Below, piece by piece: positions 17,924-32,748 of a stretch of DNA of 64,000 nt. This DNA comes from Hymenobacter daecheongensis DSM 21074 (lineage in GTDB: Bacteria; Bacteroidota; Bacteroidia; Cytophagales; Hymenobacteraceae). Below the pieces are notes generated by a model that did not search any database, had not been told where the DNA came from, and saw only the letters and a list, made by a program, of their open reading frames with translations. Position 1 is the first letter of the stretch; every line of letters starts with the position of its first letter. Location of the stretch: positions 248,001 to 312,000 of the forward strand of contig NZ_FQYN01000001.1 of NCBI RefSeq assembly GCF_900141805.1, written 5' to 3'. Made by a program: the position numbers and the translations under genes.

Positions 17924-18610
17924 TCAGGGCTGCCCACCAGTGGTTATTCGGCCAATTTTGGGGATTACCTGAATCAGGAAGCGCTTGTTCTGGCCTTCGC
18001 GGGCCCCGGCGTAGCGGCCGGTGCCGAAGAAGCCGCTGCCGCCAATGATCAGCTCGATGCCTCGGTCCTGGCTGAAATCGAGGCCGTTCTGCTTCCAGAA
18101 GTTGAGTAGGTTCAGGGCCCGGCGGTAGCTGAGCTGGTAAGTGAGCTGCTCCTCGGCGCGGTTGCGCGGGTCGTTGCCGGCGTAGCGGGCCGCCATACCT
18201 TCCACAATGACGAGGTAGCGCACAGGCTGCTCGGTTTTGATGGTTTTGAGCACCGAGCGCAGCGTGCGGCCAGCCTGGAGCAGGGCGGGCTTGTAGGCAT
18301 CCTGAATTTCGTCGCGGCCGGCCTTGAACTGCACGGGCACCAGCAGCTCGTGGCGCTCCAGCGTGGGGTCGTACTTGAAGTAGCGGCCCTCCAAGCGCTG
18401 CAGGGAGCGACGGATCTTGGTAATCTGCTCCAGCTCCTCGGCTTTCGCCTTCAGCTCGCCATTGGCCTTTTTTAGGTCGTGCTCCCGGTCTTTAAACAGC
18501 TTAAAGCTGTACACGAACAGCACCAGCATCACCACGAACAAGGACGTCATCAGGTCCACGTAGCTGGGCCAGAAGAAGTCGTTGGAGGAGCGGTTTTGCG
18601 GGTCGTTCAT
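17924..18610 (-). CDS. MotB/OmpA-like stator partner in the cytoskeletal cluster
   Basis: A 228-residue membrane protein. One N-terminal helix near residues 20-38 is preceded by FWPSYVDLMTSLFVVMLVLF; Asp19 occupies the place of the ion-carrying Asp of MotB (Asp32 in E. coli). A helical plug-like segment follows (DLKKANGELKAKAEELEQ), then an OmpA-like domain from about 90, with YQLSYRRALNLLNFW and NKRFLIQV as counterparts of the usual peptidoglycan-contact motifs and an insertion around 128-145. It should pair with the MotA-like protein encoded 140 bases upstream to form an ion-driven stator anchored to peptidoglycan. No flagellar genes are present. It is the last gene of the seven-gene cluster. 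ZorB of Zorya defence is organised similarly, but no ZorC/D/E-like gene is here. Confidence 0.85.
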   Translation of the reverse strand: MNDPQNRSSNDFFWPSYVDLMTSLFVVMLVLFVYSFKLFKDREHDLKKANGELKAKAEELEQITKIRRSLQRLEGRYFKYDPTLERHELLVPVQFKAGRDEIQDAYKPALLQAGRTLRSVLKTIKTEQPVRYLVIVEGMAARYAGNDPRNRAEEQLTYQLSYRRALNLLNFWKQNGLDFSQDRGIELIIGGSGFFGTGRYAGAREGQNKRFLIQVIPKIGRITTGGQP

Positions 18611-18645
18611 AGTTCTAAATGGAAGAAGTCAGCGGCGGAAACGAG

Positions 18646-18744
18646 GTAAAGACGTGATACTTTGCGTCTCAATCGCTGCTGACGTTGTTCGGTGCGTGCG
18701 GCTCCGGTCGTTCAACGAGGAGACGCGAAGTATCGCGTCTCTAC
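18646..18744. repeat. Dispersed palindrome, AGACGCG...CGCGTCT family, copy 1
   Basis: The arm at 18717-18744 (GAGACGCGAAGTATCGCG core) is complementary, with a few mismatches, to 18646-18674. Other copies are at 20299-20412 and 27315-27403, all in gaps of the same gene cluster. Confidence 0.8.
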
Positions 18745-18750
18745 TTCGTT

Positions 18751-20208
18751 CTATTGTGGCTTCACTCCGCCAAACACGCTGTCCATAGCCCGCTGGAGGC
18801 GGTTTTTGGCGGTGGCTTTCACCAGCACGGCATTCAGATTAGCCAACTCCGACAGAATTTTAGCCTGAATCTGCGAGTCCAGCTCGATTTTGCGCAGCAA
18901 TTCGCGCTGGGTGGCTGTTACGTCGCGGCTGAGGGCTTCCTGCTGGGCATTGAGCTGCTGGAAAGGCTCCAGGTACTGGCGGATTCGCTCGAAGACGTTG
19001 TCCTTGTTGAGCTGCTGGAAGTGCTGGCTCCACTTTTCGTAGGCCTGCTGGGCGTCGCGCTCGTGGAAGCTCAGGCGCTGCTGCATCAGGTCGGTGAGGC
19101 GGCCGGTGGCTTCGTCGAAGTACTGTTCAGTGCGGGCCGCCAAATTGCTCATCTCCTTCTGGTGGCGTTGGAAGAAGTCGAGTTGGTGCTGAATCAGGTT
19201 GTCGTGCTGGCCGATGTACTGACCCACGTTGTTGATGCCCCGCTCGAAGCCCACCAGCCGGTCCAGGATGCTGCTCACGGCCTGGGCAGTGGCGGTGCCG
19301 TCTTCCAGCATCTGGTTCAGCCGCTGCTGGTAGCCCACAAATTGCCCGAACATCTCCGCCGACTGGCTCACCTTCTCAAACACGGCCACGTTGGCGTTGG
19401 CCATTTTGTCGAACCCGATTTCGTTGAGGCGCACCAGAAAGTCGCGCTGCACTTTTACGTTCTCGGTGAGGGTGCCAATAACGGGCTCGAAGAGGGTGAC
19501 CTTGCTCACGAAATCCTGGTTGAAGGCGTCGAGCACGGCCTTCAGGTTGGAGAGGCTGCCGGCCATGTCCGAGTGCAGGATGGGCAGCAGGCGGGCCTGC
19601 AGGAAGGTATAGTAGTTGTTCTGGGCCTGATCCAGCTTCTGGTGAGCGTTGCGCACCAGGCCGTTGCCGAGCAGCGTGAGCAGCAGCCCCACGAAAGAAC
19701 CCGTCATGGCAATGAGCACGCCGGTCAGAAACGGCGTCAGCGCCGCGTCGTCGGATACGCCATTGCGGGCAATGCCGACCAGGCCCAGAATCACGCCCAG
19801 AAACGTGCCCAGCAGACCCAGGTACAGCGGCGTAGCCACGTTGGCCTGCACCGCATTTTCCAGCACCTGACTCTGGCGCTCCGAAATGTCTTTCAGAATG
19901 CTGAAGTCGGCCGCGCCCTTGTTGTAGCGCAGGTAGCCGTTGGTGTCGGCCATGATTTCCTGGAAGCCTTCGGATACCGCGTCGGCCTTGATGATTTCGA
20001 CCGGAAATGAGCCTTCCGGGGCGTTGGCGGCGTAGTCGGGCAGGTCGGTGCCCTCAGGCGTGACGAGGCGGCGCTCCACGCGCAGGGCACTTTTATCAGG
20101 ATAAAGCTGGCTGAGCCGGACCGCTTGGCTGCGGGTCTGCAGAAACGTGCGGATCTGCAGGCCCACCACAATGGCGACGACGACGACTTCGAGGAGTATT
20201 TCGAGCAT
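18751..20208 (-). CDS. MotA/TolQ/ExbB-like channel protein with long helical tail
   Basis: A 485-residue inner-membrane protein. The first helix is at residues 4-19 (ILLEVVVVAIVVGLQI). Two close helices at about 126-146 (PLYLGLLGTFLGVILGLVG) and 158-182 (PFLTGVLIAMTGSFVGLLLT) carry the Gly/Thr-rich pore pattern of MotA, TolQ and ExbB. About 300 residues of Gln/Glu/Leu-rich helix follow (for example QQLNKDNVFERIRQYLEPFQ), predicted as a long cytoplasmic coiled coil. This architecture is like ZorA and other non-flagellar stators. The ATG at 20208 starts directly before the first helix and is preferred to a GTG nine codons upstream. It would form the pentameric part of a rotary or torque unit with the downstream MotB-like protein. 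The tail may reach cytoplasmic partners encoded upstream. Confidence 0.85.
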   Translation of the reverse strand: MLEILLEVVVVAIVVGLQIRTFLQTRSQAVRLSQLYPDKSALRVERRLVTPEGTDLPDYAANAPEGSFPVEIIKADAVSEGFQEIMADTNGYLRYNKGAADFSILKDISERQSQVLENAVQANVATPLYLGLLGTFLGVILGLVGIARNGVSDDAALTPFLTGVLIAMTGSFVGLLLTLLGNGLVRNAHQKLDQAQNNYYTFLQARLLPILHSDMAGSLSNLKAVLDAFNQDFVSKVTLFEPVIGTLTENVKVQRDFLVRLNEIGFDKMANANVAVFEKVSQSAEMFGQFVGYQQRLNQMLEDGTATAQAVSSILDRLVGFERGINNVGQYIGQHDNLIQHQLDFFQRHQKEMSNLAARTEQYFDEATGRLTDLMQQRLSFHERDAQQAYEKWSQHFQQLNKDNVFERIRQYLEPFQQLNAQQEALSRDVTATQRELLRKIELDSQIQAKILSELANLNAVLVKATAKNRLQRAMDSVFGGVKPQ

Positions 20209-20235
20209 GAAACCGGGAACGGGAACGAAGCACAA

Positions 20236-20259
20236 AGGTCAGCGCAAATACGCTGACCT
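20236..20259. repeat. Short perfect palindrome just upstream of the MotA-like gene
   Basis: AGGTCAGCG at 20236-20244 pairs with CGCTGACCT at 20251-20259 around CAAATA. It ends 28 bases before the MotA-like ATG (minus strand). It could be an operator, an mRNA leader hairpin or a terminator without a T run. Confidence 0.5.
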
Positions 20260-20298
20260 GAGCGGGAAGATGCAAAAAAGGCCGCTGGATTGAACGAT

Positions 20299-20412
20299 GT
20301 AGAGACCCGACACTTCGCGTCTCGGCGTTCGCGCCGTTTGTTGGAGGCCGTTCGATGGGTATCGTTCAGCGGATGTCGTTCAACGACGAGACGCGAAATG
20401 TCGCGTCTCTAC
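20299..20412. repeat. Dispersed palindrome, AGACGCG...CGCGTCT family, copy 2
   Basis: Arms at 20299-20323 and 20388-20412 are near-perfect reverse complements (GTAGAGACCCGACACTTCGC core on the left). The centre contains GTTCGATGGGTATCGTTC-like shorter inverted pieces. Confidence 0.8.
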
Positions 20413-20444
20413 ACCGTTCTGGCGCCTGTTAATTCCTGCCTATT

Positions 20445-21986
20445 CTACTCGAAATGAATGGCTGCCTTGTGCTCAATCTGCCAGGCCCCATTGCTCTTCA
20501 CCAGTGTCCCATCCTTATCCGTCACGATGCGCGACACCGGCCCGTTGGGCTGCTGGTACGCGCAGGCATCGCGCAGAGAATATTGGGCGCTCTGAATGGC
20601 GTAGGCGTGCACGGCGGAGTTGGACGTGACGCGGAATGTGGCCCGCTCGGGCACGCGGGCGTCGGGGGTGATTTCGTAGATGCTGTCGTGCTGGGGCTGT
20701 TCCTGGAGGTCGTAGTCGCTGAAGCCACCGTTCACGGGCACCTTCACGTAGTAGCGCGTCGGCGCGGGCGGTACGGGCGTTGATGCTACCGGCGCAGTGG
20801 CTTCGGCCCAGTTCGTGCTCGGTAGCTGCACGGGCGGAATCAGGCTGTCGAACTCGTCGCGGGGGCCGCTGGCGGTCGAGCCGGCCGGCAGTACGGGCGG
20901 CTGAGGCATGGCTTCCTGGAAGGATTCGGGCGCGGCCACCGGGGCAGCGGCGGGGGCCGAAGCGGGAGTTGGCGGCGCGGGTGCCGCTTGGCGCTGGGGC
21001 TGGGGTTGTGGCGAAGGAACCGCTACCGGCTGCCCCGGCCGCGACTGATTATTCGACTGCTGATTTCCCTGGTTGCGCGGCTGGTTCTGCGGTTTGCCTG
21101 GGTTTTGGCCCTGCGGCTGCCCACTCCCCTGCCGCTTGCCCAGTTCCTCAGCCACACGCTGTTGCACCAGCTTCTCAATGTCGCGCTGCAATTCCGGCGT
21201 CAGGCCCTTAGCCGTAGCAGCCGGGCGGGCGGGCGTGCTGCTGGTAGAGGAGGCCTTCACCGATTCCAGCTCGTTGCGGTGGCGGTCGGCGCGGCTGCCC
21301 AGCTCGCTGATGCTGCGGCGCAGCATCATGTAGAGGAACAGGCTCAGCAGAGACAGAATCAAGGCCAGCGGGGCGAAGAACTTGCTCATCAGGCTTTCCC
21401 CACCCGCCGGGCGCGCTGTTGTCGTGTTCACCGACTGGCTGCCCAGGCCGGTTTCGGCAGGGCCAGCCACGGCATCGTCGGTAGCCGTAGTGTCGATGAC
21501 GTCGGTAGTCTGATCGGCGGGAGCGGCGGCAATGTCGGTGGGCGGGGTGCCGTTTTCGACGTAGCCTTTCAGCTGGGCTTCCAGGGCCTGCACGCCCTGC
21601 ATCCGGGCGGCATCCTTGCGGCGGGCCGGAGAGGCTTTCAGCTTGTTGATGATTTCGGTAGCCAGCTTCTGCAGCCGCGACTTATCCGAGCCCAGCCCCG
21701 TGTACATGCTGCCCTTCACCTCCAGCGGGCGGTAGAGCATGCTGTACACCTTTTGGCTGTCGGCCTTGATGCTGTTTTCGAACTCCTTGAGGCTGCCCCC
21801 GCAGCGCAGGGTGCTTTGCAGGTTGGGCCGGCCGGTGTCGCCGTACACGAACTTCATCGTGGCGCACCAGATCTGGGTTTTCTGCTCGTCGAGCGTGGGC
21901 TGGCCCAGGGGCGTTTGGGCGTGGGTGGCCGTCGCTAGGAGCAGCAGAGCGGTGAGCAAGGCAAAGACGCGGCGGGAAAGGGTCAT
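20445..21986 (-). CDS. Bitopic envelope protein with Pro/Gln-rich linker, cytoskeletal cluster
   Basis: A 513-residue protein of no recognised family. A signal peptide (MTLSRRVFALLTALLLLATATHAQ) leads to a periplasmic domain of about 120 residues with Cys41 and Cys62 that could pair, then a Thr/Asp/Ala-rich spacer. A membrane helix lies at 203-222 (FFAPLALILSLLSLFLYMML), followed by a short coiled coil (LQRDIEKLVQQRVAEELGKR near 265-290). A 150-residue Pro/Gln/Asn/Ala-rich linker then leads to a C-terminal cytoplasmic domain of about 100 residues starting YYVKVPVNGGFSDYDL. The protein thus joins the periplasm to the cytoplasm and could couple the actin-like and stator proteins encoded on either side. 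Its function is inferred only from topology and gene order. Confidence 0.75.
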   Translation of the reverse strand: MTLSRRVFALLTALLLLATATHAQTPLGQPTLDEQKTQIWCATMKFVYGDTGRPNLQSTLRCGGSLKEFENSIKADSQKVYSMLYRPLEVKGSMYTGLGSDKSRLQKLATEIINKLKASPARRKDAARMQGVQALEAQLKGYVENGTPPTDIAAAPADQTTDVIDTTATDDAVAGPAETGLGSQSVNTTTARPAGGESLMSKFFAPLALILSLLSLFLYMMLRRSISELGSRADRHRNELESVKASSTSSTPARPAATAKGLTPELQRDIEKLVQQRVAEELGKRQGSGQPQGQNPGKPQNQPRNQGNQQSNNQSRPGQPVAVPSPQPQPQRQAAPAPPTPASAPAAAPVAAPESFQEAMPQPPVLPAGSTASGPRDEFDSLIPPVQLPSTNWAEATAPVASTPVPPAPTRYYVKVPVNGGFSDYDLQEQPQHDSIYEITPDARVPERATFRVTSNSAVHAYAIQSAQYSLRDACAYQQPNGPVSRIVTDKDGTLVKSNGAWQIEHKAAIHFE

Positions 21987-22033
21987 GGCAGCGGGAAAGG
22001 GGAAGGACGCTGGTTGTCGTTGTTTATTAAGCT

Positions 22034-22124
22034 TGTCATGCTGAGCGAAGTCGAAGCATCTCTACCACAGTAGCAATCAAATTACTTTGGCGGTAGAGAT
22101 GCTTCGACTTCGCTCAGCATGACA
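22034..22124. repeat. Perfect 33-bp palindrome, TCATGCTGAGCGAAG family
   Basis: The arms 22034-22066 and 22092-22124 are exact reverse complements with the core CATGCTGAGCGAAGTCGAAG. The 25-base centre is A/T rich. It occupies the gap between the actin-like gene and the bitopic-protein gene. Confidence 0.9.
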
Positions 22125-22150
22125 GCCGATTCTGTTCTTGGACTCAGGGC

Positions 22151-25100
22151 CTACCCGTTCGAAATCAGCTCCCGGCTCAGGTTGTACAGGGCTTGCTTGA
22201 GCGGGTAGAAGAACAAGGTTTCGGGCAGGGTTTCGCCCTGGCCGAGGTTGCGGCCAATCTGGTGCAGGCCCAGGTTGAGGCTGTCCTCGATTTCGCGCAG
22301 CAGCATTTCCTTGATGCGGGTGCGGTCCACGTCCACGCCCACCTCGCGCATGAGCGGGGCTACGTCGTCGTTGTCGAGCACGATGTCGAGGAAGCGCTTG
22401 GTGTTGTCGATGACGCTCTGCTTGAGGTCGGCATCCACCTGAGGCATTTTCAGGCGGGCCGTGTCGATGTCCTGACCGGTCAGGGCGCCGTCCAGCTTCA
22501 CGGTGCGGATCTGGTCGAAGTCAGCGGCGCTGGTGGCACTTTCCTCGAACAGCACCCCGCCGTTGGTAGTGGCTTCCTTGGGGTTGTCGGCCAGGATGAC
22601 GCGGAAGTTCTGGGGCGCCTCCTGGCCCGTGGCGGCCTTAAACACGGCTTTGCTGATCTTCTCAATGGCGGCCATGCTGGCCCCGCCGCTGAGCAGACGC
22701 AGGTACAGGCTGCCCTTGCCCGAGAAGCACAGGTAGCGCGGGGGCTTGAGGCCGAGGTGCTGCACAAGCTGGGCCACGTGGTAGACGATGGCCGTGTAGT
22801 GCAGGTAGAACAGCACCCGCAGCTGCCGCCCCTTACCCAGGCCCAGGCTCTGGGTGAAGCGCAGCGCGTCGTTGTAGGTGAAGAGCAGGCTGGTCACGTC
22901 GGCCGAGCCGAAATCGGGGTTCTGGAGCGCGGCGCGCAGGTAGCCCTTGTACTCCTGATTTTCCTCCGAGTCTGGCAGGCTTTCCACGTACTGCACGCCG
23001 AGGCGGAGCAGGCCGTTCTGCTTGGGCGCCCCCTGCACGCGGGCGTAGCCGTCACCCCAGAGGTCGTCGCCGGCAAAGCGGAACGAGGAGCTGAAGGCGG
23101 GCTTCTGGTCGGCGAAGATCAGCAGGTCGGTGGTGCCGCCGCCGATGTCGATGTTGATGACGTTTTCGTCGCGGTTGGGCACCACCTGGTTGGTGGCCGT
23201 GAGGTAGTAGTACGGCGCCACCGACTCCGAAATGCACTGGGTGGGGCGGCGGGCCCGGAAAATCTGCTGGAAGGCCTCGTCCCAGACCTGCTGGAACTGG
23301 TTGCGCAAAAACATGTCGAAGCTCAGCGGGGCAAACCACACCACGCGGGTGTCTTCCAGAATGCCGCCCTGCATGGCCGCCTTGTGCTTCATCAGCAGCA
23401 AAATCTCCTTGAAGAAGGCCGCAATGCGGTTCACGCCCTGGGGGTCCAGCTCGGCGCTCCACTTCAGGTTGGTCACGAAGCGGTTCTGGGGCGGCTGCCC
23501 AGTCTCGGTGTTGATGCTGAAGCCGATGTTGATGTTGCTGAGCACCTTGCTGGGCTCGTTGGCATAGGAGTTCGTCTCGCACACGGCAGTCCGAATCGGA
23601 AACTCATACACCGAGCCGGCCTCGCCGATGATGCTGGGCACGAATTCGCGGTTCTGAATCAGCGGAATGTCGAACAGCTGGCCGGGGCCGCGCATGTAGC
23701 GCTGGTAGGCCGAGTAGCCGGTGTCGGGCAGCGGGGCGTTGAGCAGCTCCATCTGCAGGTCACTTTCGCTGATGGTGAACGGGCGCGGGTGGGCCGAGGG
23801 ACCGTCGGCGTAGGCCACGTGGGTGTTGCTGGTGCCAAAGTCGACGGCGAAGGTGAAGCGGCGGGTGCCGCGGTCCAGCTCCCGCCAGCGCGGCACAATC
23901 AGGCCCCGGGCCGGGGGTGCGCCGTGGAAAGCCGGCGGGCAGGTCAGCTCGGCCAGGTCGAAGTGCGTCCCAGTTATTTCGTAGTAGGTGCTGCCGGCCG
24001 TGGACACGCTCTTCTGGGTGCGCTCAAACTTGGTGGCCCGCTTCGACGCGCCCTGGTCCGTGAGCCGCTCCCCGCCCACGAAGAAGGTGAGGTCGTAGCG
24101 GCGCTGGAGCATGGTGGGCGAGTTGTCGGCGTCCACAAGCATGACCTTGTAGAAGTCGTTGTACTCGGGCTGGGCGCGCATCTTGTAGAACGGGAGCACA
24201 CCCAGGCCGATGTTGGCCTTCACGATGCGGCCCTTCTCGGGAATCTCCCGGCCCTGCGCGTCCTTGGGGTTCTGAGGGTTCTGGTAGTAGCTCCGCTCGA
24301 AGGTGATGAAGCGGCCGCCCTGCACCGGAATCCGCAGCGCGATGCGCACATGGTTGAGGTCGATGGTGAAGGTGAGCAGCTCGGCCAGGTCGTGGTCGGA
24401 GAAGTACTCGAAGAACGTCTGGCGCAGGGGCAGCAAGTAGGGAAACCGCGCCCGGCCCTGGGTGTCGGCCCCGTACTGGAACGTGACCTTGCCGGTGTGG
24501 AAGCGCTGGGCGTTCAGCTCGTAGGGCAGCTCCACCAGGGCATCTTCCAGAAAGTCGCCGACGGTCAGGTACGGGTACTTGAAGCCTTTGCCGGGCAGCA
24601 CGCGGTTTTCCAGGGTCAGCTCGTCGGCGTAGGGCACCGGGGTGCGGTCGTCCCAGGGCTGGCCGTTGAGGTAGTTGGCACCCTGCATGGTCAGGTTGGG
24701 GCGCAGCACCAGCGGCGTGGGCCGGCTTTGGTTGGTCTGCCGGGTGGGCGCGATGAACAGGTCGGAGCTGGTCACGGCCGACTGGTCGGCGCGGCTGGGC
24801 AGGGGCACGTGCTTCACGCTGGCCAGGTTGCCCTGGAAGTCGGCAATGGCGGGGTACTTGGTGGCAAACTGCTGGGCCGTATGGTCGCCCTGCATCTGCA
24901 TCTGGTTGATGCGGTTGCGGTCTAGCCCGGCAAACACGCTGCCGGCAAACTCCCGGCGCTGGAGCTGCGGGTAGGCCAGGAACAGCTCGTAAACAAAGTC
25001 GCGGAAGGCCGGGGAACGGTCTTCGAGCAGCACTACCTGGTTGTCGAAGTAGTGCCCTTTGGCCTGGGCGCGCTCCAGATCCAGCTGGCGCACGGCGGGG

Positions 25101-25621
25101 GCGGTGAAGAGCAAGGTCAAGGGCGAAGTGCCGCCGAGCAGCTGGGGCCCGCCGGGCATATTCGGCGACTCGTAGAACACGAGGTACATGTCGGAGAAGT
25201 CGCGGAACCGGTCGTCCTGCAGGAACAGGCGCAGGGTTTCGCCCAGCAGGCGGGTGCCTTCGTCCTGCTGCATCCGCCGCAGCTCGGCCTCCACGTTCCA
25301 GCGGCGCAGGGTGATTTTGCGGCCGGCCTGAGTGTAGAGGTTGTAATTGTAGAGGATTTCGAACAAATCCCAAAGGTGCGACACCAGCTCGTGGTAGACT
25401 GAGCCGGGGTTGCGCTGCCCTTCCCGGGCCAGGAAGTCGAAGGCGGTTTCAAACAGGTGCATCCGCGCAAACGGCGTCGGAATGCTCACCGCCACGTTCT
25501 TGGCCCGCCCGCCCGTGGGGTCGGTGACGGTATTGATTTCGGTGCTGGTGATGGGGGCGGTTTTCTGCCAGCCCTGCACCTGCTGGGAGCCGTTGTTGTG
25601 AAGACGAAGGACTTTGGGCAT
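22151..25621 (-). CDS. Large protein with C-terminal actin/Hsp70-fold ATPase domain
   Basis: A 1156-residue cytoplasmic protein. The first 585 residues match no family I recognise: mixed alpha/beta, with no signal peptide or membrane helix. The C-terminal half is an actin/Hsp70/MreB-type ATPase: phosphate-1 loop FAVDFGTSNTHVAYAD near 591-606, phosphate-2 loop INIDIGGGTTDLLIFAD near 822-838, and a late LCFSGKGSLYLRLL adenosine-type motif. Between these, PLSFDMFLRNQF and CISESVAPYYYL fit the subdomain connections. The layout recalls SrfB-type actin-like proteins, but homology is not shown. The ATG at 25621 is used because the upstream non-ATG extension is encoded by a dispersed repeat. It lies between the tubulin-like gene and the bitopic-protein gene and is the likely ATP-driven core of the cluster. 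Confidence 0.85.
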   Translation of the reverse strand: MPKVLRLHNNGSQQVQGWQKTAPITSTEINTVTDPTGGRAKNVAVSIPTPFARMHLFETAFDFLAREGQRNPGSVYHELVSHLWDLFEILYNYNLYTQAGRKITLRRWNVEAELRRMQQDEGTRLLGETLRLFLQDDRFRDFSDMYLVFYESPNMPGGPQLLGGTSPLTLLFTAPAVRQLDLERAQAKGHYFDNQVVLLEDRSPAFRDFVYELFLAYPQLQRREFAGSVFAGLDRNRINQMQMQGDHTAQQFATKYPAIADFQGNLASVKHVPLPSRADQSAVTSSDLFIAPTRQTNQSRPTPLVLRPNLTMQGANYLNGQPWDDRTPVPYADELTLENRVLPGKGFKYPYLTVGDFLEDALVELPYELNAQRFHTGKVTFQYGADTQGRARFPYLLPLRQTFFEYFSDHDLAELLTFTIDLNHVRIALRIPVQGGRFITFERSYYQNPQNPKDAQGREIPEKGRIVKANIGLGVLPFYKMRAQPEYNDFYKVMLVDADNSPTMLQRRYDLTFFVGGERLTDQGASKRATKFERTQKSVSTAGSTYYEITGTHFDLAELTCPPAFHGAPPARGLIVPRWRELDRGTRRFTFAVDFGTSNTHVAYADGPSAHPRPFTISESDLQMELLNAPLPDTGYSAYQRYMRGPGQLFDIPLIQNREFVPSIIGEAGSVYEFPIRTAVCETNSYANEPSKVLSNINIGFSINTETGQPPQNRFVTNLKWSAELDPQGVNRIAAFFKEILLLMKHKAAMQGGILEDTRVVWFAPLSFDMFLRNQFQQVWDEAFQQIFRARRPTQCISESVAPYYYLTATNQVVPNRDENVINIDIGGGTTDLLIFADQKPAFSSSFRFAGDDLWGDGYARVQGAPKQNGLLRLGVQYVESLPDSEENQEYKGYLRAALQNPDFGSADVTSLLFTYNDALRFTQSLGLGKGRQLRVLFYLHYTAIVYHVAQLVQHLGLKPPRYLCFSGKGSLYLRLLSGGASMAAIEKISKAVFKAATGQEAPQNFRVILADNPKEATTNGGVLFEESATSAADFDQIRTVKLDGALTGQDIDTARLKMPQVDADLKQSVIDNTKRFLDIVLDNDDVAPLMREVGVDVDRTRIKEMLLREIEDSLNLGLHQIGRNLGQGETLPETLFFYPLKQALYNLSRELISNG

Positions 25622-25629
25622 ATCGTGGA

Positions 25630-25813
25630 CCCCTCCCCCCGGCCCCCTCCCCAAAAGGGATGGGGAGCCTGACGAGGATGTTCGGGGCGTTTGTTTTGGA
25701 CTAAAAACCAGGGATTAAAACCGCAGCTACAACTACCGCGAGAGCAAGAGCAAGAGCTAGAACAAAAAGCCAAAGCTAGAGCCCCTCCCTTTTGGGGAGG
25801 GGTTGGGGAGGGG
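25630..25813. repeat. C/G-tract palindrome, CCCCTCCC...GGGGAGGGG family
   Basis: The C-rich left arm (25630-25660, ending CCCCAAAAGGGA) and the right arm (25786-25813, TCCCTTTTGGGGAGGGG) are complementary. The 125-base centre has a purine-rich run of GAGCAAGAGCAAGAGCTAG type. This kind of repeat is widely dispersed in bacterial genomes. It fills the gap between the tubulin-like and actin-like genes. Confidence 0.8.
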
Positions 25814-25819
25814 TTTCCG

Positions 25820-27268
25820 CTACACCACCTTCACCTTTTCCTCGAACGCCTTATCCGTCACCTGATCGAACAAAGCCACCAGCTTGCGAAAGCTGTCGGG
25901 CTCGTGGATGGACTTGGCGGCGTCGTTGAGCTGGTTGAGGAAGTAGTTCTGGCTGAGGCCCTTGTTGAAGAAGTCGTTCCACTTCTTTTCCACCGGCTTG
26001 CCCGCAATCATGGCGTTGAAGTCGTCGGTGGTCAGGTCGAAGGGGCGGAAGCTGCGGCGGTTCTGGCTGAGCTCCTTGAGCCACTCGTCGACGCCGTACT
26101 CAGGGCTGTGCAGGAAGTTGTTGAGTTCTTTGAAGATGGGCTCGTTGCGCAGGGCGTGGTCCAGGTTCAGGTTGTCGTGGTAGGGGGCCTTGTCGGTGGG
26201 CAGGTGCTGCTTGTGGTAGCGCGAGAAGTACAGCAGCTGGGTCAGGTGCTTGGCAATCAGCTCCCGGCTCTCGTCGGGCAGGTGGCTGAAGTTCAAATCC
26301 TGGGTGTCGGTGCCGAGGCCGTACTCGTGGAAGTGCGGGGCGCCGTTGCGCAGCTCCGCGTCGGAGTACTGCATGAAGTCGACCACGCTCAGGGCGGCCA
26401 GCAGCTCGATGAGGTGGGCCTTGTTGCGCTGGGCCGTGCCGCCGGGCTGGTTTTCGTAGGGCGTGTCGGGCGTGTCGGCCAGGTAGTACAGCGCGTCGAG
26501 ACCCTGCAGGTTGTGCTCGTAGTAGCTGAGCGCGGCCTTGGTCTTGGTCAGGAAGGAGTTGGAGTCGATAACCGAGTTATCCTCCGACTGCAGGGCGAAG
26601 TAGGGCATCACCGTCACGGCCCCGGTGAGAGCGTTGCGCAGGTAGCCGGCGTTGCTGAGGCGGGTGTTGGGGTCTTTCAGGTTTTTGAGCAGCAGCGGGA
26701 AGCCTGCGGCCCCCGTCCCGCCGAAGATGCTGGAGATGAAGAATACCCGGTCCCCGGCCTGGAAGTTGTCGGCGAAAAACCGGATTTCCGGCGACTCCAC
26801 TACTTTGTTCAGCACGATGCTGCCCACGTTGGGCGAGCCCCGGAAACCGATGGTCAGCGGGCTTTCCAGGTTGTCCTGGGTGAACAGCAACTCCACCAGC
26901 CCCTTGGAATCGACGGACAATTGGTCGTAGCTCAGGTACTGGCGGAAGCTCTGGTTGATGCCGCCGAAGTCGAATACGAATGTGTCCTTCACCCCGCCGT
27001 TGGTGTCGGCCGAGATGCTGCTCAGGGTGCTCATATCCGTCTGGAAGAAGCCGTCCTCGCGGGGCCCCAGGTGCTGGTAGATCTGCTGGTAGCTCTTGAG
27101 CATGTCCACCGTGCGGTTCATGTCGCCGTTGTGGGCGTCGGGGTCGATGATGATGGGCACCACCCGGTCGCAGTTGGCGAGCTTCACGCCCGAGGCCAGC
27201 AGCATGGTCAGGGACCGGATGACGCGGGAGCCGGTGCCGCCAATGCCGAAAATGAACAGTTTAGCCAT
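25820..27268 (-). CDS. Tubulin/FtsZ-superfamily-like protein
   Basis: A 482-residue cytoplasmic protein with the layout of the FtsZ/tubulin superfamily. The N-terminal LFIFGIGGTGSRVIRSL (residues 4-20) matches the first nucleotide-binding loop, and FISSIFGGTGAAGFP (177-191) contains GGTGAAG, the counterpart of the tubulin signature GGGTG[TS]G. A later Asn-rich helix may supply the base contacts. The C-terminal half is more divergent and longer than in FtsZ. This fits the poorly studied Pfam 'Tubulin like' group rather than a division FtsZ. The first Gly of the signature is replaced by Phe, so GTPase activity should be tested, not assumed. It is third in the cluster, after the vWA lipoprotein and the small membrane protein. 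Confidence 0.85.
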   Translation of the reverse strand: MAKLFIFGIGGTGSRVIRSLTMLLASGVKLANCDRVVPIIIDPDAHNGDMNRTVDMLKSYQQIYQHLGPREDGFFQTDMSTLSSISADTNGGVKDTFVFDFGGINQSFRQYLSYDQLSVDSKGLVELLFTQDNLESPLTIGFRGSPNVGSIVLNKVVESPEIRFFADNFQAGDRVFFISSIFGGTGAAGFPLLLKNLKDPNTRLSNAGYLRNALTGAVTVMPYFALQSEDNSVIDSNSFLTKTKAALSYYEHNLQGLDALYYLADTPDTPYENQPGGTAQRNKAHLIELLAALSVVDFMQYSDAELRNGAPHFHEYGLGTDTQDLNFSHLPDESRELIAKHLTQLLYFSRYHKQHLPTDKAPYHDNLNLDHALRNEPIFKELNNFLHSPEYGVDEWLKELSQNRRSFRPFDLTTDDFNAMIAGKPVEKKWNDFFNKGLSQNYFLNQLNDAAKSIHEPDSFRKLVALFDQVTDKAFEEKVKVV

Positions 27269-27314
27269 TGAATCGCAGATTTTGCTGATTAAGCGCGGAG
27301 TGCGCAGATTTCGT

Positions 27315-27403
27315 GTAGAGACGCATAATTGCGTCTGCCGTTGAACGATAGCCGCTTAGCCGCCGGACCATCCAACGATTGAGACGCAAGTATGCGTCTC
27401 TAC
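27315..27403. repeat. Dispersed palindrome, AGACGCA...TGCGTCT family, copy 3
   Basis: Arms at 27315-27336 and 27381-27403 are complementary (GAGACGCAAGTATGCGTCTC is the right-arm core). It sits between the small membrane protein gene and the tubulin-like gene. Confidence 0.8.
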
Positions 27404-27407
27404 ATTC

Positions 27408-27800
27408 CTAAAAAGGCGTCGTACTGGCGTTGGTGGAGCCCCGCTTGAGCAACACCGAGAACAGGAAAAACCAGAACAGGCCCAGGATGGCGTTCCAGGT
27501 GGCCATCCAGTAGATGTAGCTGTGCGAGGCCACTTCCTGCGCATTGGTCTGCCAGATGCCGATTACAAAGGCCAGTACGGCATTAACCACCAGGAAAATC
27601 ACCCAGTGCCGCACCTTGTTGAAGGTGGCCACGCCCAGGGCGCGGTTGATGAGGTAGTAGAAAATGAGCACCATAGCCAGGGACAGGCCGATGGTGAGCA
27701 GGCCCACGTTGGGGAAAATCACCTCCCGGTACACGGGCGTTTCGGAAGGAGGCTGCGGGGTGCCGATAAGCTCGTAGATGAAGCGGAAGAAACCTTTCAT
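27408..27800 (-). CDS. Small three-helix membrane protein of the cytoskeletal cluster
   Basis: A 130-residue inner-membrane protein with three predicted helices at about 31-52 (NVGLLTIGLSLAMVLIFYYL), 64-84 (RHWVIFLVVNAVLAFVIGIW) and 98-118 (WMATWNAILGLFWFFLFSVL). A 30-residue N-terminal arm (MKGFFRFIYELIGTPQPP) may lie along the membrane. No family was recognised. It lies 107 bases after the vWA lipoprotein gene and 139 before the tubulin-like gene on the same strand, so co-expression is likely. A role as membrane anchor for a soluble partner such as the tubulin-like protein is plausible but unproven. Confidence 0.8.
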   Translation of the reverse strand: MKGFFRFIYELIGTPQPPSETPVYREVIFPNVGLLTIGLSLAMVLIFYYLINRALGVATFNKVRHWVIFLVVNAVLAFVIGIWQTNAQEVASHSYIYWMATWNAILGLFWFFLFSVLLKRGSTNASTTPF

Positions 27801-27907
27801 TCTTAGAAATTTTGAATTTTAAATACTGAATGCTGAATGGAAAGGATTGAGTAGTGCGGCGGAAGACAGTATCCATTCAAAACGCAACCCTCAAGATTCC
27901 CCATTGC

Positions 27908-29293
27908 TTAGTCTGCAGGCTGCAGAGTGAGCGGGATAATGAACACCGGCGTTGGGGTCTGCTCAGTGGCAGTTACAGCCTGCACGCCATCCATGAGGCT
28001 GCTGAGAGCAAAGGTTTTGGTGCCGGTCTGGTTGATGTTGCTGTCGTTTTTGGTGGTCCACTGCGCCACCCAGGCCGGGCGCTGGTTCCGGAGCACCAGT
28101 TGGAGCGGGCGGGCGGCCTTGCCGAGCTTGGTAACGTGCACTTTCACAAAATGCGTGTACTTACTTTCCTCACCGCTGCTGTTTTTTGTCTGCTCATTAG
28201 CGGCAAACACGCTAACTATCTTCGCGTCGGTGTCCTGGGCCTGTATGTTAAGACTGGTTTTCAGGTAGTTCAGGTCGCGGTAGAGGGCCGGCAGGGTTTT
28301 CAGGTCCATGCCCACCACAAATTCTACTGGTTCCTTGGCAGAGATGCTGCTCACGGCCACGGTATGGTATGAAGCCCCGGCGGCCCGCTTGCTGGCGTCT
28401 TTCTCGCCGTAGTACCAAGCACCCACATTCTGAAAGCGGCTAAGCAAAGAGGAGGCCGGCGTGGGGTACTTCACCCCAAAGTGAGCCTGCTGCCCCGGCT
28501 GCCGCTCCAGCAGCGCCGCATCGAAGCGGCGCACGGCATCGGCAGGGCCAATGACCCAGAAGTAGTACGGAATCGGCGTGTCGCAGCAGGCGCTGATTTT
28601 CCTCACGCCGGTATTGAGGGCTGGATAGTACGCGCCGCGAAAATCCGACGTGTAGCCGTACACCGAGATGGCCAGGTCGGGGCGCTGGGTGCGGTTCAGC
28701 GCGTCGGTGATATCGGTGCTGATGTAGGGAATGGCCCCGGCGTTTTTCGGCGAGTAGATGAAGTCCGAAATCAACACGCTCACCGTGTTGGTGGCATAAT
28801 AGCCGCTAACCAGCGTGTCGAGCACCGTCGGAATATCGGTACTGCTGGCGGGCTGCTGAATGCCGGAGCGCACCGTCTGGGAAAGCTGTTGGTAGGAGTC
28901 GCGGTAGGGCTTTTCCTTGATGCGGAAGTAGGTTTTGCGGGCCGCGCTGCTGCGGTTCACTTCTGACAGAAACTGTGCTACATGCTGCTGGAAGCGGGTA
29001 TTAGCGGCATCCGCGCCGGTTTTGGGCATGAAACCTTCCATAGAGCCCGATACTTCCAGAAACACGTTCACCTGGGCCAGCGGGCCAGCAGCCGCAGTTG
29101 CTGGGGCAGAATTATTGGTAGCATCAGCCGTGGGCGCGGGAGTCGTGGCGTTTTCGTCCGGGGCGGCGGTTTCGGTAGAGGCAGCTGGCGCGGTGGCCTT
29201 TTCGCCCTTCATATCGGAGCGGGAGTAGCAGCCGGCCAGCAACAGGCCCACGGTCAGGGCAGGAAGCAGGCGAAAAGAACGGGTCAAGTGCAT
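27908..29293 (-). CDS. vWA-like domain lipoprotein, first gene of the cytoskeletal cluster
   Basis: A 461-residue lipoprotein. MHLTRSFRLLPALTVGLLLAG precedes the lipid-carrying Cys22, then about 45 residues of Ala/Thr/Pro-rich linker. From about residue 75 the fold looks like a von Willebrand A domain: VNVFLEVSGSMEGF gives a MIDAS-type E80-x-S82-x-S84 (the usual first Asp is replaced by Glu), and VLISDFIY near 173-180 supplies the later MIDAS Asp177. The remaining 280 residues continue as alpha/beta elements without a clear second domain. Exported vWA domains bind partner proteins in a metal-dependent way. As the first gene in the cluster it would act on the periplasmic side, perhaps touching the bitopic protein or the OmpA-like domain. 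The gap to the upstream nucleotidyltransferase contains a terminator at 29470-29514, so a promoter should lie at 29294-29460. Confidence 0.8.
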   Translation of the reverse strand: MHLTRSFRLLPALTVGLLLAGCYSRSDMKGEKATAPAASTETAAPDENATTPAPTADATNNSAPATAAAGPLAQVNVFLEVSGSMEGFMPKTGADAANTRFQQHVAQFLSEVNRSSAARKTYFRIKEKPYRDSYQQLSQTVRSGIQQPASSTDIPTVLDTLVSGYYATNTVSVLISDFIYSPKNAGAIPYISTDITDALNRTQRPDLAISVYGYTSDFRGAYYPALNTGVRKISACCDTPIPYYFWVIGPADAVRRFDAALLERQPGQQAHFGVKYPTPASSLLSRFQNVGAWYYGEKDASKRAAGASYHTVAVSSISAKEPVEFVVGMDLKTLPALYRDLNYLKTSLNIQAQDTDAKIVSVFAANEQTKNSSGEESKYTHFVKVHVTKLGKAARPLQLVLRNQRPAWVAQWTTKNDSNINQTGTKTFALSSLMDGVQAVTATEQTPTPVFIIPLTLQPAD

Positions 29294-29469: not shown

Positions 29470-29514
29470 AAAGGCTTCGTGGCTTTACTGTATCAGTAAA
29501 GCCACGAAGCCTTT
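29470..29514 (-). terminator. Strong hairpin terminator after the nucleotidyltransferase gene
   Basis: A perfect 21-bp stem (29470-29490 with 29494-29514) around a 3-base loop, with core GGCTTCGTGGCTTTACTG and an oligo-T tract on the minus strand. It separates the nucleotidyltransferase transcript from the cytoskeletal cluster. Confidence 0.92.
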
Positions 29515-30754: not shown

Positions 30755-31333
30755 ATGAAACGCTTTCTTCTCTACTTCGTCGGTCTGGCGATTTTGCTTT
30801 CCCAGTCGTCGTGCGGCTACAACTCGATGGTGTCGAAAGACCAAGCCGTGAAAGCCCAGTGGGCCAACGTGCAAAACAGCTACCAGCGCCGCGCCGACCT
30901 GATTCCGAACTTGGTGAACACCGTGAAAGGTGCCGCCAACTTCGAGAAGTCGACCCTGACGGACGTAATTAATGCCCGCGCCAAAGCCACCAGCGTGCAG
31001 CTTTCGTCTGACCAGCTGACCCCTGAAAACATCAAGAAATTTCAGGAAGCCCAGAGCCAGGTATCAGCCGGATTGGGCCGCTTGCTGGCCGTGTCGGAAA
31101 ACTACCCTGAGCTGAAAGCCAACGCCAACTTCCAGGAGCTGCAGGCCCAGATCGAGGGCACCGAAAACCGCATCAACGTGGAGCGCGGCAAGTTCAACGC
31201 GGCCACCAACGACTACAACGGCTACATCAAGTCGTTCCCGAATAATCTGTTTGCCGGCATGTTCGGCTTCAAGGAGAAACCCTATTTCGAAGCCGACGCC
31301 GCTTCGCAAAAAGCCCCGACGGTTCAATTTTAA
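30755..31333 (+). CDS. LemA family lipoprotein
   Basis: A 192-residue LemA-family protein with a lipobox-like N terminus (MKRFLLYFVGLAILLSQSSC, Cys20), so it is probably a lipoprotein rather than the usual membrane-helix form. The family core is complete: MVSKDQAVKAQWANVQNSYQ, RRADLIPNLVNTVKGAANFE near residues 45-65, LGRLLAVSENYPELKANANF near 107-126, and ENRINVERGKFNAATNDYN near 136-154. LemA proteins are long antiparallel helical bundles of unknown function, widely found in bacteria beside TPM-domain proteins, as here: two TPM genes follow on the same strand. The start is a good ATG after a GC-poor leader. A regulatory or envelope-quality role is suggested only by the recurrent gene pairing. 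Confidence 0.92.
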   Translation: MKRFLLYFVGLAILLSQSSCGYNSMVSKDQAVKAQWANVQNSYQRRADLIPNLVNTVKGAANFEKSTLTDVINARAKATSVQLSSDQLTPENIKKFQEAQSQVSAGLGRLLAVSENYPELKANANFQELQAQIEGTENRINVERGKFNAATNDYNGYIKSFPNNLFAGMFGFKEKPYFEADAASQKAPTVQF

Positions 31334-31402: not shown

Positions 31403-31858
31403 ATGAACAACCCTCTCACTCCGGAGCAGGAGGCGGCGCTGGTCGCCGCCATCCGGCAGGCGGAAATCACGACTTCCGGCGAAATCCGGGTGCATCTGGA
31501 AGATGCCTGCCCCACGCCCGAGCCCCTGGACCGCGCCGCGCAGGTTTTTGCCGAGCTGAACATGCACAAAACGGCCTTGCGCAACGGCGTGCTGTTTTAC
31601 CTGGCCTGGGATACGCGCCAGTTTGCCGTCATCGGCGATGCAGGCATCAACTCCGTGGTGTCGGATGAGTTCTGGGAAATCACCAAGGAAGCCGTGCTGG
31701 AGCAGTTTCGCCTCGGCAAATTCGTGCTGGGCCTGGAGCGCGGTATTAAGATGGTGGGCGAGCAGCTGCAGCACCACTTCCCCTACGACCACGCCACCGA
31801 CCACAACGAACTCGACGACACCATCTCGTTTGGCGACGCCAAGCCGCCGCGCGTATGA
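31403..31858 (+). CDS. TPM-domain protein without membrane anchor
   Basis: A 151-residue TPM-domain (Psb32-like) protein lacking signal peptide and membrane helix. LTPEQEAALVAAIRQAEITTSGEIRVHLE is the canonical domain start, and the AELNMHKTALRNGVLFYLAW and QFAVIGDAGINSVVS segments are typical. The C-terminal tail is acidic with His. Domains of this family are thought to act in protein-turnover or photosystem-repair-type contexts; in bacteria the role is open. It overlaps the next TPM gene by four bases (ATGA), showing translational coupling. The LemA-TPM-TPM order is a recurring bacterial arrangement. Confidence 0.9.
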   Translation: MNNPLTPEQEAALVAAIRQAEITTSGEIRVHLEDACPTPEPLDRAAQVFAELNMHKTALRNGVLFYLAWDTRQFAVIGDAGINSVVSDEFWEITKEAVLEQFRLGKFVLGLERGIKMVGEQLQHHFPYDHATDHNELDDTISFGDAKPPRV

Positions 31859-32673
31859 ACAACTCCCCCGCTTTGCCGCTCCGCGGTATCTGGCTTCGAC
31901 TCCTGCTGATTGTGCTGCTGGCCGCCGGCCCGTGGCGGCCCTTGTGGGCGCAGCAGCTGCCTCCACGCCACAATCCGCCGCGCCTCGTTAACGACCTGGC
32001 CGGCATGCTGCGCCCCGATGAGGAGCAGGCCCTGGAGCAGAAGCTGGTGGCCTACAACGACTCCACCACCTCGCAGATTTCCATCGTCACAATCCCCACC
32101 CTCGGCGATTATGAAATTGCCGACTACGCCCAGAAGCTCTACGAAAGCTGGGGCATCGGGCAGAAAGGCACCAACAACGGCGTGCTGCTGCTGATAGCCG
32201 AGCAGGAGCACCGCGCCCGGATCCAGACCGGCTACGGCCTGGAAGGGGCCATTCCAGACGCTTTGGCTAAGCGCATCATCTCCAATACCATTGTGCCCGC
32301 ATTTCGGGAGAAGCAGTATTACGAGGGCCTGAACCGGGCCACCGACCAGCTCATTGCCCTAGCCAAAGGCGAATACCAAGCCGACCAGACGCCCGCCGCC
32401 CGCCAGAATACCGACGACAGCGGCTCGGGCTGGAAGTTCTGGCTCATCATTGCGGCCATCGTGCTGTTCATCATCCTGCGCAGCCGCGGTGGCGGGGGCG
32501 GCGGGCGGCGCAGCGGCGGCTTCGGCGGCGGTATGATTCCGCCCATCATCTTCGGCGACTTTAGCGGCGGCCGCGGTGGCTTCGGTGGTTTTGGCGGCGG
32601 GGGCGGCGGTGGGGGCTTTGGCGGCTTCGGCGGCGGCAGCTCCGGCGGCGGCGGCGCCAGCGGCGAGTGGTAG
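31855..32673 (+). CDS. TPM-domain membrane protein with Gly-rich C terminus
   Basis: A 272-residue membrane-attached TPM protein. It has an N-terminal signal (LRLLLIVLLAAGPWRPLWAQ), the TPM domain near 30-175 (RLVNDLAGMLRPDEEQALEQ, QISIVTIPTLGDYEIADYAQ, NNGVLLLIAEQEHRARIQTG), a membrane helix near 193-208 (KFWLIIAAIVLFIILR), and a long Gly/Phe-rich tail. Such tails are typical of YgcG-like membrane TPM proteins. It is translationally coupled to the preceding gene and ends inside a 36-bp perfect hairpin that also holds the stop codon of the convergent gene. The exact function is unknown, but TPM-LemA proteins act together. Confidence 0.92.
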   Translation: MNNSPALPLRGIWLRLLLIVLLAAGPWRPLWAQQLPPRHNPPRLVNDLAGMLRPDEEQALEQKLVAYNDSTTSQISIVTIPTLGDYEIADYAQKLYESWGIGQKGTNNGVLLLIAEQEHRARIQTGYGLEGAIPDALAKRIISNTIVPAFREKQYYEGLNRATDQLIALAKGEYQADQTPAARQNTDDSGSGWKFWLIIAAIVLFIILRSRGGGGGGRRSGGFGGGMIPPIIFGDFSGGRGGFGGFGGGGGGGGFGGFGGGSSGGGGASGEW

Positions 32674-32748
32674 GCTCTCTAGTTATCAGCAACAAAAACG
32701 GCGGCCTATATGGGCCGCCGTTTTTGTTGCTGATAACTAGAGAGCCTA
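32671..32748. terminator. 36-bp perfect bidirectional terminator containing both stop codons
   Basis: The arms 32671-32706 and 32713-32748 are exact reverse complements with a 6-base loop TATATG. The outermost three bases on the left are the TAG of the TPM gene, and those on the right are the TAG (read on the minus strand) of the delta-60 gene. Inside the stem an A5/T5 tract gives terminator character in both directions. Such a long perfect stem is unusual. Confidence 0.95.

Follow-up and report, generated by a model that had tools for sequence, protein, structure and literature searches.

What might be built by seven consecutive genes that place an ion-motor-type pair beside a tubulin-like and an actin-like protein? 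Such a cluster lies in the window, a stretch of 64,000 nucleotides from Hymenobacter daecheongensis DSM 21074 (assembly GCF_900141805.1, contig NZ_FQYN01000001.1, positions 248,001 to 312,000), where seven minus-strand genes, lettered A to G from 5' to 3', span positions 17924-29293 with intergenic gaps of 107-209 bp. To our knowledge, it is unusual for a bacterial operon other than one for division to encode both a tubulin-fold and an actin-fold protein. We propose tentatively, with a little less than even confidence, that the seven genes are a conserved set building one cross-envelope machine, in which an ion motor formed by F and G is coupled to a cytoplasmic pair formed by C and D.

The conservation of the set was examined in 80 loci, which represent the best matches among 584 confirmed C relatives (loci are numbered with L and genomes with G). 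A-G were found in the same order in 76 of them, and the remaining four (L004, L064, L067 and L080) were interrupted by contig ends. The seven-gene cluster on one strand described in an earlier note, which was made from the letters of the window alone, is thus real, and its genes occur together in other genomes. C was found in 115 of 115 Hymenobacter genomes, as a single match in 108, as two adjacent pieces in six and as three pieces in one fragmented draft; the one match in G476 was weak and partial. The two-piece cases (G397, G399, G416, G428, G459 and G480) reflect either a sequencing error or a real frameshift. G was present in 124 of 150 family genomes (68 of these from Hymenobacter), and C was found in none of the 20 genomes in which it was looked for among the 26 without G.

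The folds of C and D were established from structure models, not from sequence searches of solved structures. C has the tubulin/FtsZ GTPase fold according to structure-model matches, of which Foldseek alone gave one below 1e-3, and these matches hardly cover C beyond ca. residue 345. When the C profile was compared with the sequences of solved structures, one 30-residue CetZ match (E 0.36) and one unrelated match were obtained. The GGTG at residues 183-186 was identical in 90 of 90 alignment rows. The wider nucleotide-loop signature of tubulin and FtsZ is [SAG]GGTG[SA]G, with which C, reading FGGTGAAG, agrees in part only. The window C was 99% identical to a Hymenobacter algoricola protein, scored 16.3 bits against Tubulin_2 (PF13809), below the cut-off of 27, and gave no match to the FtsZ C-terminal domain. 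In D, an ATPase domain of the actin/Hsp70 type occupies residues 597-1047 and is followed by a helical C-terminus, while ca. 595 N-terminal residues lie outside every fold match. The superfamily fold and the phosphate loops were recognised in the structure model and the alignment, respectively, and Asp605 in the phosphate-1 loop was conserved in 89 of 89 rows. The top Pfam match of D was FtsA, below the cut-off, and PHROGs gave D no more than a weak partition-protein match. Matches of D in 64 of 74 phylum genomes (17-22 bits over 37-73 residues, in open reading frames (ORFs) of ca. 410-640 amino acids) were excluded as probably FtsA. D also showed a weak SrfB match (E 0.075). The earlier calls of a tubulin-like C and an actin-like D were thus upheld by the structure matches of the models. 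No membrane helix was predicted in C or D of the window, and both would be cytoplasmic.

These folds also suit a different explanation, along the lines suggested for FtsZl1 by Makarova and Koonin, in which the set is a membrane-remodelling, cell-shape or division machine: C and D would form polymers along the inner membrane, and the motor would do no more than anchor them. The Tubulin_2 label, carried by 8 of the 120 C relatives among the matches listed, points the same way, as do the vWA and OmpA partners, which recall the operons described in the main text of these authors' 2010 study (PMC2875224). Set against this are the region of C beyond ca. residue 345, barely covered by structure matches, and the patchy occurrence of the core outside the Hymenobacteraceae, and we consider such a machine rather unlikely.

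F was predicted to have three membrane helices and a cytoplasmic C-terminal tail of ca. 310 residues; three helices were scored in 77 of 79 F proteins, and tail lengths ranged from 302 to 357 residues. Against MotA_ExbB, F scored 22.8 bits in the protein scan (cut-off 22.9) and 24.4 bits in the genome search, and its matches to GTPase-named models were weak (E 0.011 and 0.044). G has a single membrane helix and an OmpA-like domain, predicted to be periplasmic, in which the Arg of LSxxR was constant. Asp19 of G was Asp in all 78 alignment rows with letters at this position. With a MotA_ExbB domain in F and a membrane-helix Asp in G, the two proteins form the MotA/MotB-type stator pair that the earlier note had recognised. 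Among known stators, profile comparison places ZorAB of Zorya nearest to this putative pair. The window G matched ZorB1 at E 7.3e-13 (PADLOC models), ZorB1 models were matched by 21 of 21 G rows (best E 1.4e-13), and the G profile matched the solved chain 8vvn at E 9.4e-7.

The ZorB1 matches raise the question of whether the set is a Zorya-like anti-phage system, in which F-G would sense peptidoglycan disturbance at phage entry and C-D would be the effector. The long C-terminal tail of F is shared with ZorA, as described in passages on the motor in PMC11890865, and the companion modules described below differ between species, as is common for defence loci. However, A-E matched no PADLOC model at E <= 1, hence the set showed no sign of ZorC, ZorD or ZorE, and F and G stayed far under the NCBIfam Zorya cut-offs (19.6 of 700 bits and 22.7 of 400 bits, respectively). 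Because C occurs throughout the genus (115 of 115 genomes) and the set lies amid housekeeping genes (LemA, TPM, S9 peptidase and TonB receptors), the phage defence that had been listed among the possible roles is less likely, and we regard a Zorya-like system as distinctly unlikely.

In the order, D was found in 33 of 146 genomes (E <= 1e-10). Eighteen of the 20 order loci outside the family were taken, G249 and G371 being treated separately, and 16 were usable after L184 and L188 had proved to be cut. A-B-C-D-E occurred in order in 15 of these and dispersed in one (G591), and F-G followed A-E in five of the 16. A-E is thus the core of the system and F-G an optional energising and anchoring module: the stator anticipated for the machine is present, with ZorAB as its nearest relative, but it is optional outside the family. 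Where F-G was absent, the companions included one-helix WG-repeat proteins (L097 and L098), an OmpA protein (L103) and, at L101, a protein with a below-cut-off SH3 match adjoining an L,D-transpeptidase. Three TerD genes (L102:1171-3062; G184, Ignavibacteria-type) lay downstream of a diverged set, of which C and D were assigned by profile and A and B by position. Among the matches listed, the C of L102 showed 66-78% identity to relatives from Pedobacter, Chitinophaga, Flavobacterium and others; judged by these identities, C of this type, whose surroundings were seen at L102 and L103, is a second widespread lineage. A Prevotella record carried A-B-C-D-E. G309, which shares an identical D with Salisaeta longa, had the order G-A-B-C-D-E-F (with position, size, helices and motif, rather than a profile, identifying A and B), and its F scored 22.3 of the 22.9 bits required for MotA_ExbB; a search with the Salisaeta D returned 30 close kin. 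From this gene order, the motor is therefore probably not a recent addition of the Hymenobacteraceae.

The ion-motor pair with its invariant membrane Asp, together with the lipoprotein A, would also be expected of a GldLM-like motility or secretion motor, in which F-G feeds force to an outer-membrane process via A or E. However, the core occurs without F-G in 10 of the 16 order loci, C and D of the window are predicted to lack membrane helices and would be cytoplasmic, and Pfam and NCBIfam yielded no match named Gld or Spr for any of the seven proteins. We hold such a motor to be very improbable.

Three operon types (I, II and III) were defined in Hymenobacter on C, the identity of which was only 45-50% between types. 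In a quick tree of C with long outgroup branches (44 rows: 38 of the 80 loci, the window and five outgroup rows), Hymenobacter was not a single clade (p-AU 8e-22). The types were compared across 54 loci, after removal of the 26 of the 80 that came from other genera; L028, from Solirubrum, stayed in type I, and genes truncated at contig ends are not represented. The nearest neighbour was in the same type for 317 of 318 copies of the six genes other than C, and the lone mismatch was the G of L059. With C included, the count was 371 of 372, although the 54 agreements of C itself are not independent, the types being drawn from C. The agreement of the six other genes indicates that the seven genes are co-inherited and, therefore, that the set was exchanged whole. 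At L072, L078 and L079, an inverted type-II operon occupied the type-I site between the S9-peptidase and nucleotidyltransferase genes, and a full-length type-I-like E gene remained beside it (L072:6278-7891, L078:6265-7860 and L079:6231-7853). The nucleotidyltransferase-LemA flank was observed in 35 of the 80 loci, namely all 30 type-I loci, two Adhaeribacter loci and these three. In the draft genome G680 (330 contigs), C and D were fused into a single ORF of 1623 amino acids, truncated by the contig end (L188:3-4871), with a linker of ca. 14 residues. G591, a single contig, had its genes divided among three places on the chromosome, as A-B-C, D-E-F and G (L201, L175 and L202); its interpretation as a decayed locus was rejected, as all seven genes were found, dispersed. 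That the seven genes are unrelated neighbours, together by chance or through shared regulation only, is hardly credible, since the wide gaps between the window genes, which would suit it, are contradicted by whole-set swapping, the C-D fusion and retention after dispersal.

The lipobox Cys22 of A was invariant in a 27-row alignment, and 44 of 80 raw A ORFs, with unrefined starts, carried a simple lipobox pattern. None of 27 A members matched vWA in Pfam. A profile of A (36 proteins) was compared with a vWA profile made from domains of 22 relatives, which were selected from 30 starting loci, 26 of them without stops, by D-x-S-x-S near the start. The match (80% probability, E 1.4e-5) takes in a loop resembling the metal-ion-dependent adhesion site (MIDAS) and the 'ISDF' strand, while the profiles of the six other components reached no more than 1.4%. 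The first MIDAS (DxSxS) acid of A was Glu in 29 of 36 rows, and the A profile gave nothing useful against the sequences of solved structures. Thus, the earlier assignment of A as a vWA-like lipoprotein holds with respect to the lipobox and the profile match, but the relationship to vWA is distant. Searches of solved structures gave no relative of B and, for E, none better than E 0.3. E has a signal-peptide-like start, a membrane helix at residues 204-222, a proline-rich linker and a conserved C-terminal domain.

We infer the assembly, stoichiometry, coupling direction and functions of A-G along the following lines, with Zorya supplying, by analogy, a working model for the motor. In the inner membrane, F and G would form a ZorA5B2-like complex in which Asp19 of G would carry the ion, while the OmpA-like domain would grip peptidoglycan. 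The tail of F would extend into the cytoplasm and meet E, C and D. E would span the inner membrane, its conserved C-terminal domain lying on the cytoplasmic side, and would connect C and D with the motor. B would be an inner-membrane protein, and A, as a lipoprotein, would be exposed to the periplasm. The motor would be opened or loaded when the envelope or peptidoglycan changes, and ion flow would drive or gate the nucleotide-dependent assembly of C and D, which would act back on the envelope. Stator, GTPase and ATPase would, as first suggested, act together across the envelope.

Several observations weigh against this proposal. The T7 catalytic loop of FtsZ was not locatable in C, and Asp297, its candidate T7 acid, was D in 71 of 90 rows and H in 19. 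OmpA-type peptidoglycan sites usually carry an acid, which is not conserved in G. The likeness of F to ZorA is weak, no single ZorA model matching more than 5 of 24 rows, and the conservation of E is low. C was present in only 13 of 395 phylum genomes; D adjoined it in 12, all but G390, a genome with 13% contamination. Besides the 10 order loci without F-G, no G was found elsewhere in any of the 12 searched genomes that lack F-G at the locus (including G680, with its cut locus, and G249), a result that covers close relatives only, as the G profile misses diverged copies such as Salisaeta's own G. There, motor coupling is therefore not needed for the core. In addition, the C-D fusion and the dispersal are each known from one case.

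The role of the set in Hymenobacter is likely housekeeping, in the form of envelope maintenance or surveillance, rather than patchy defence, because it is genus-wide, mostly single-copy and surrounded by housekeeping genes, whole types are replaced instead of lost, and its companions face the envelope. It is possible, if doubtful, that the set is a cytoskeletal engine drawing on three energy sources: the first machine of the envelope to have a rotary motor, driven by protons or sodium, that powers or gates an assembly made jointly by a GTPase of the tubulin family and an ATPase of the actin family, found genus-wide and passed between lineages as a seven-gene cassette. The genus-wide presence of C in culturable Hymenobacter, together with motor-less relatives, a fusion and a dispersed set, makes the question of ion motors driving cytoskeletal nucleoside triphosphatases testable, and the set gives the FtsZl1 prediction of 2010, to which we return below, a tractable model.

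Table 1. Features of the seven-gene set and its upstream neighbourhood in the window.
Feature	Position in window	Strand	Basis or remark
A, vWA-like lipoprotein	27908..29293	-	Lipobox and distant vWA-like domain at ca. 70-180
B, three-helix membrane protein, 130 amino acids	27408..27800	-	Helix prediction; without known family
C, tubulin-superfamily protein, 482 amino acids	25820..27268	-	Fold matches
C GGTG codons (residues 183-186), nucleotide-loop signature	26711..26722	-	Alignment
D, actin/Hsp70-type ATPase protein, 1167 amino acids	22151..25654	-	Fold matches; probable start codon 12
D phosphate-1 loop (residues 603-614, DFGTSN)	23813..23848	-	Alignment
E, bitopic protein	20445..21986	-	Membrane helix prediction
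F, MotA/TolQ/ZorA-like channel	18751..20235	-	Profile matches and helices; probable start codon 10
G, MotB/ZorB-like protein with OmpA-like domain	17924..18610	-	Profile matches and helix
G Asp19 codon, membrane helix, expected ion-binding acid	18554..18556	-	Alignment
Terminator-like hairpin, 20 pairs, upstream of A	29471..29513	-	Pattern match
LemA gene, upstream of set	30755-31333
TPM-domain gene, upstream of set	31855-32673

A nucleotidyltransferase gene lies upstream of A and an S9 peptidase gene downstream of the set. The hairpin between A and the nucleotidyltransferase gene is likely the 5' boundary of the set, as judged from its pattern, the frequency of terminator-like sites across the region being no higher than in shuffled sequence. 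Window 32746-35226 encodes a DUF5122 beta-propeller protein that carries a sorting tail for type IX secretion.

Makarova and Koonin (2010) predicted, in the main text of PMC2875224, operons of FtsZl1 that also encode vWA and OmpA proteins plus a P-loop GTPase and would act in membrane remodelling; the terms 'hsp70', 'mota' and 'proton' have 0 occurrences in that text, and its 'actin' passages deal with other systems. Like the systems described there, the set A-G has a divergent tubulin-superfamily protein, with no clear T7 or C-terminal elements recognised, beside vWA-like, OmpA-type and membrane proteins. Unlike them, it has a constant actin/Hsp70-type ATPase partner and an added ion-motor pair, no kinase match and only a distant vWA match, and Pfam and NCBIfam scans of the seven proteins gave no convincing P-loop GTPase. 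The connection to this prediction made in the earlier note was thus right in kind (FtsZl1-vWA-OmpA) but not in detail, C lying under the Tubulin_2 cut-off and the P-loop GTPase not being recognised. Passages of a 2023 FtsZ/tubulin paper (PMC9871819) treat Tubulin_2 proteins as divergent, and the word 'tubulin' does not occur in the available text of a 2025 stator survey (PMC12505986). Among the papers listed by full-text searches, the coverage of which excludes subscription papers, preprints and supplements, we recognised no report of both folds beside an ion-driven stator, and no paper on motility and cytoskeleton in Hymenobacter was found.

In the sections of Kaur et al. (2020; PMC7159879) on GAP1-N2 systems, the tubulin and HSP70 themes are non-overlapping and GTPase-centred. 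The set A-G shares with these systems tubulin-domain and vWA proteins in membrane-linked operons, some of theirs also having HSP70; unlike them, it holds both folds together and a motor, with no convincing GTPase match and no GAP1-named match among the seven proteins in the Pfam and NCBIfam scans. The likeness to the Ter (TerD) stress clusters lies in the three TerD genes after the diverged Ignavibacteria-type set, whereas a TerD match is absent from the seven window proteins. The pairing of a tubulin-fold with an actin-fold partner is that of FtsZ and FtsA in division, but D, at 1167 amino acids, has a large extra N-terminal region, and C is without an FtsZ C-terminal match. According to the passages on the Zorya motor in PMC11890865, that motor binds peptidoglycan and its cytoplasmic tail is required for function. 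As in ZorA-ZorB, F is three-helix and MotA-like with a long tail, and G is MotB-like with a membrane Asp and a domain of the peptidoglycan-binding type. Unlike Zorya, with ZorC, ZorD and ZorE not seen and scores far under the curated cut-offs, the set A-G is genus-wide and joins its motor pair to tubulin- and actin-type partners.

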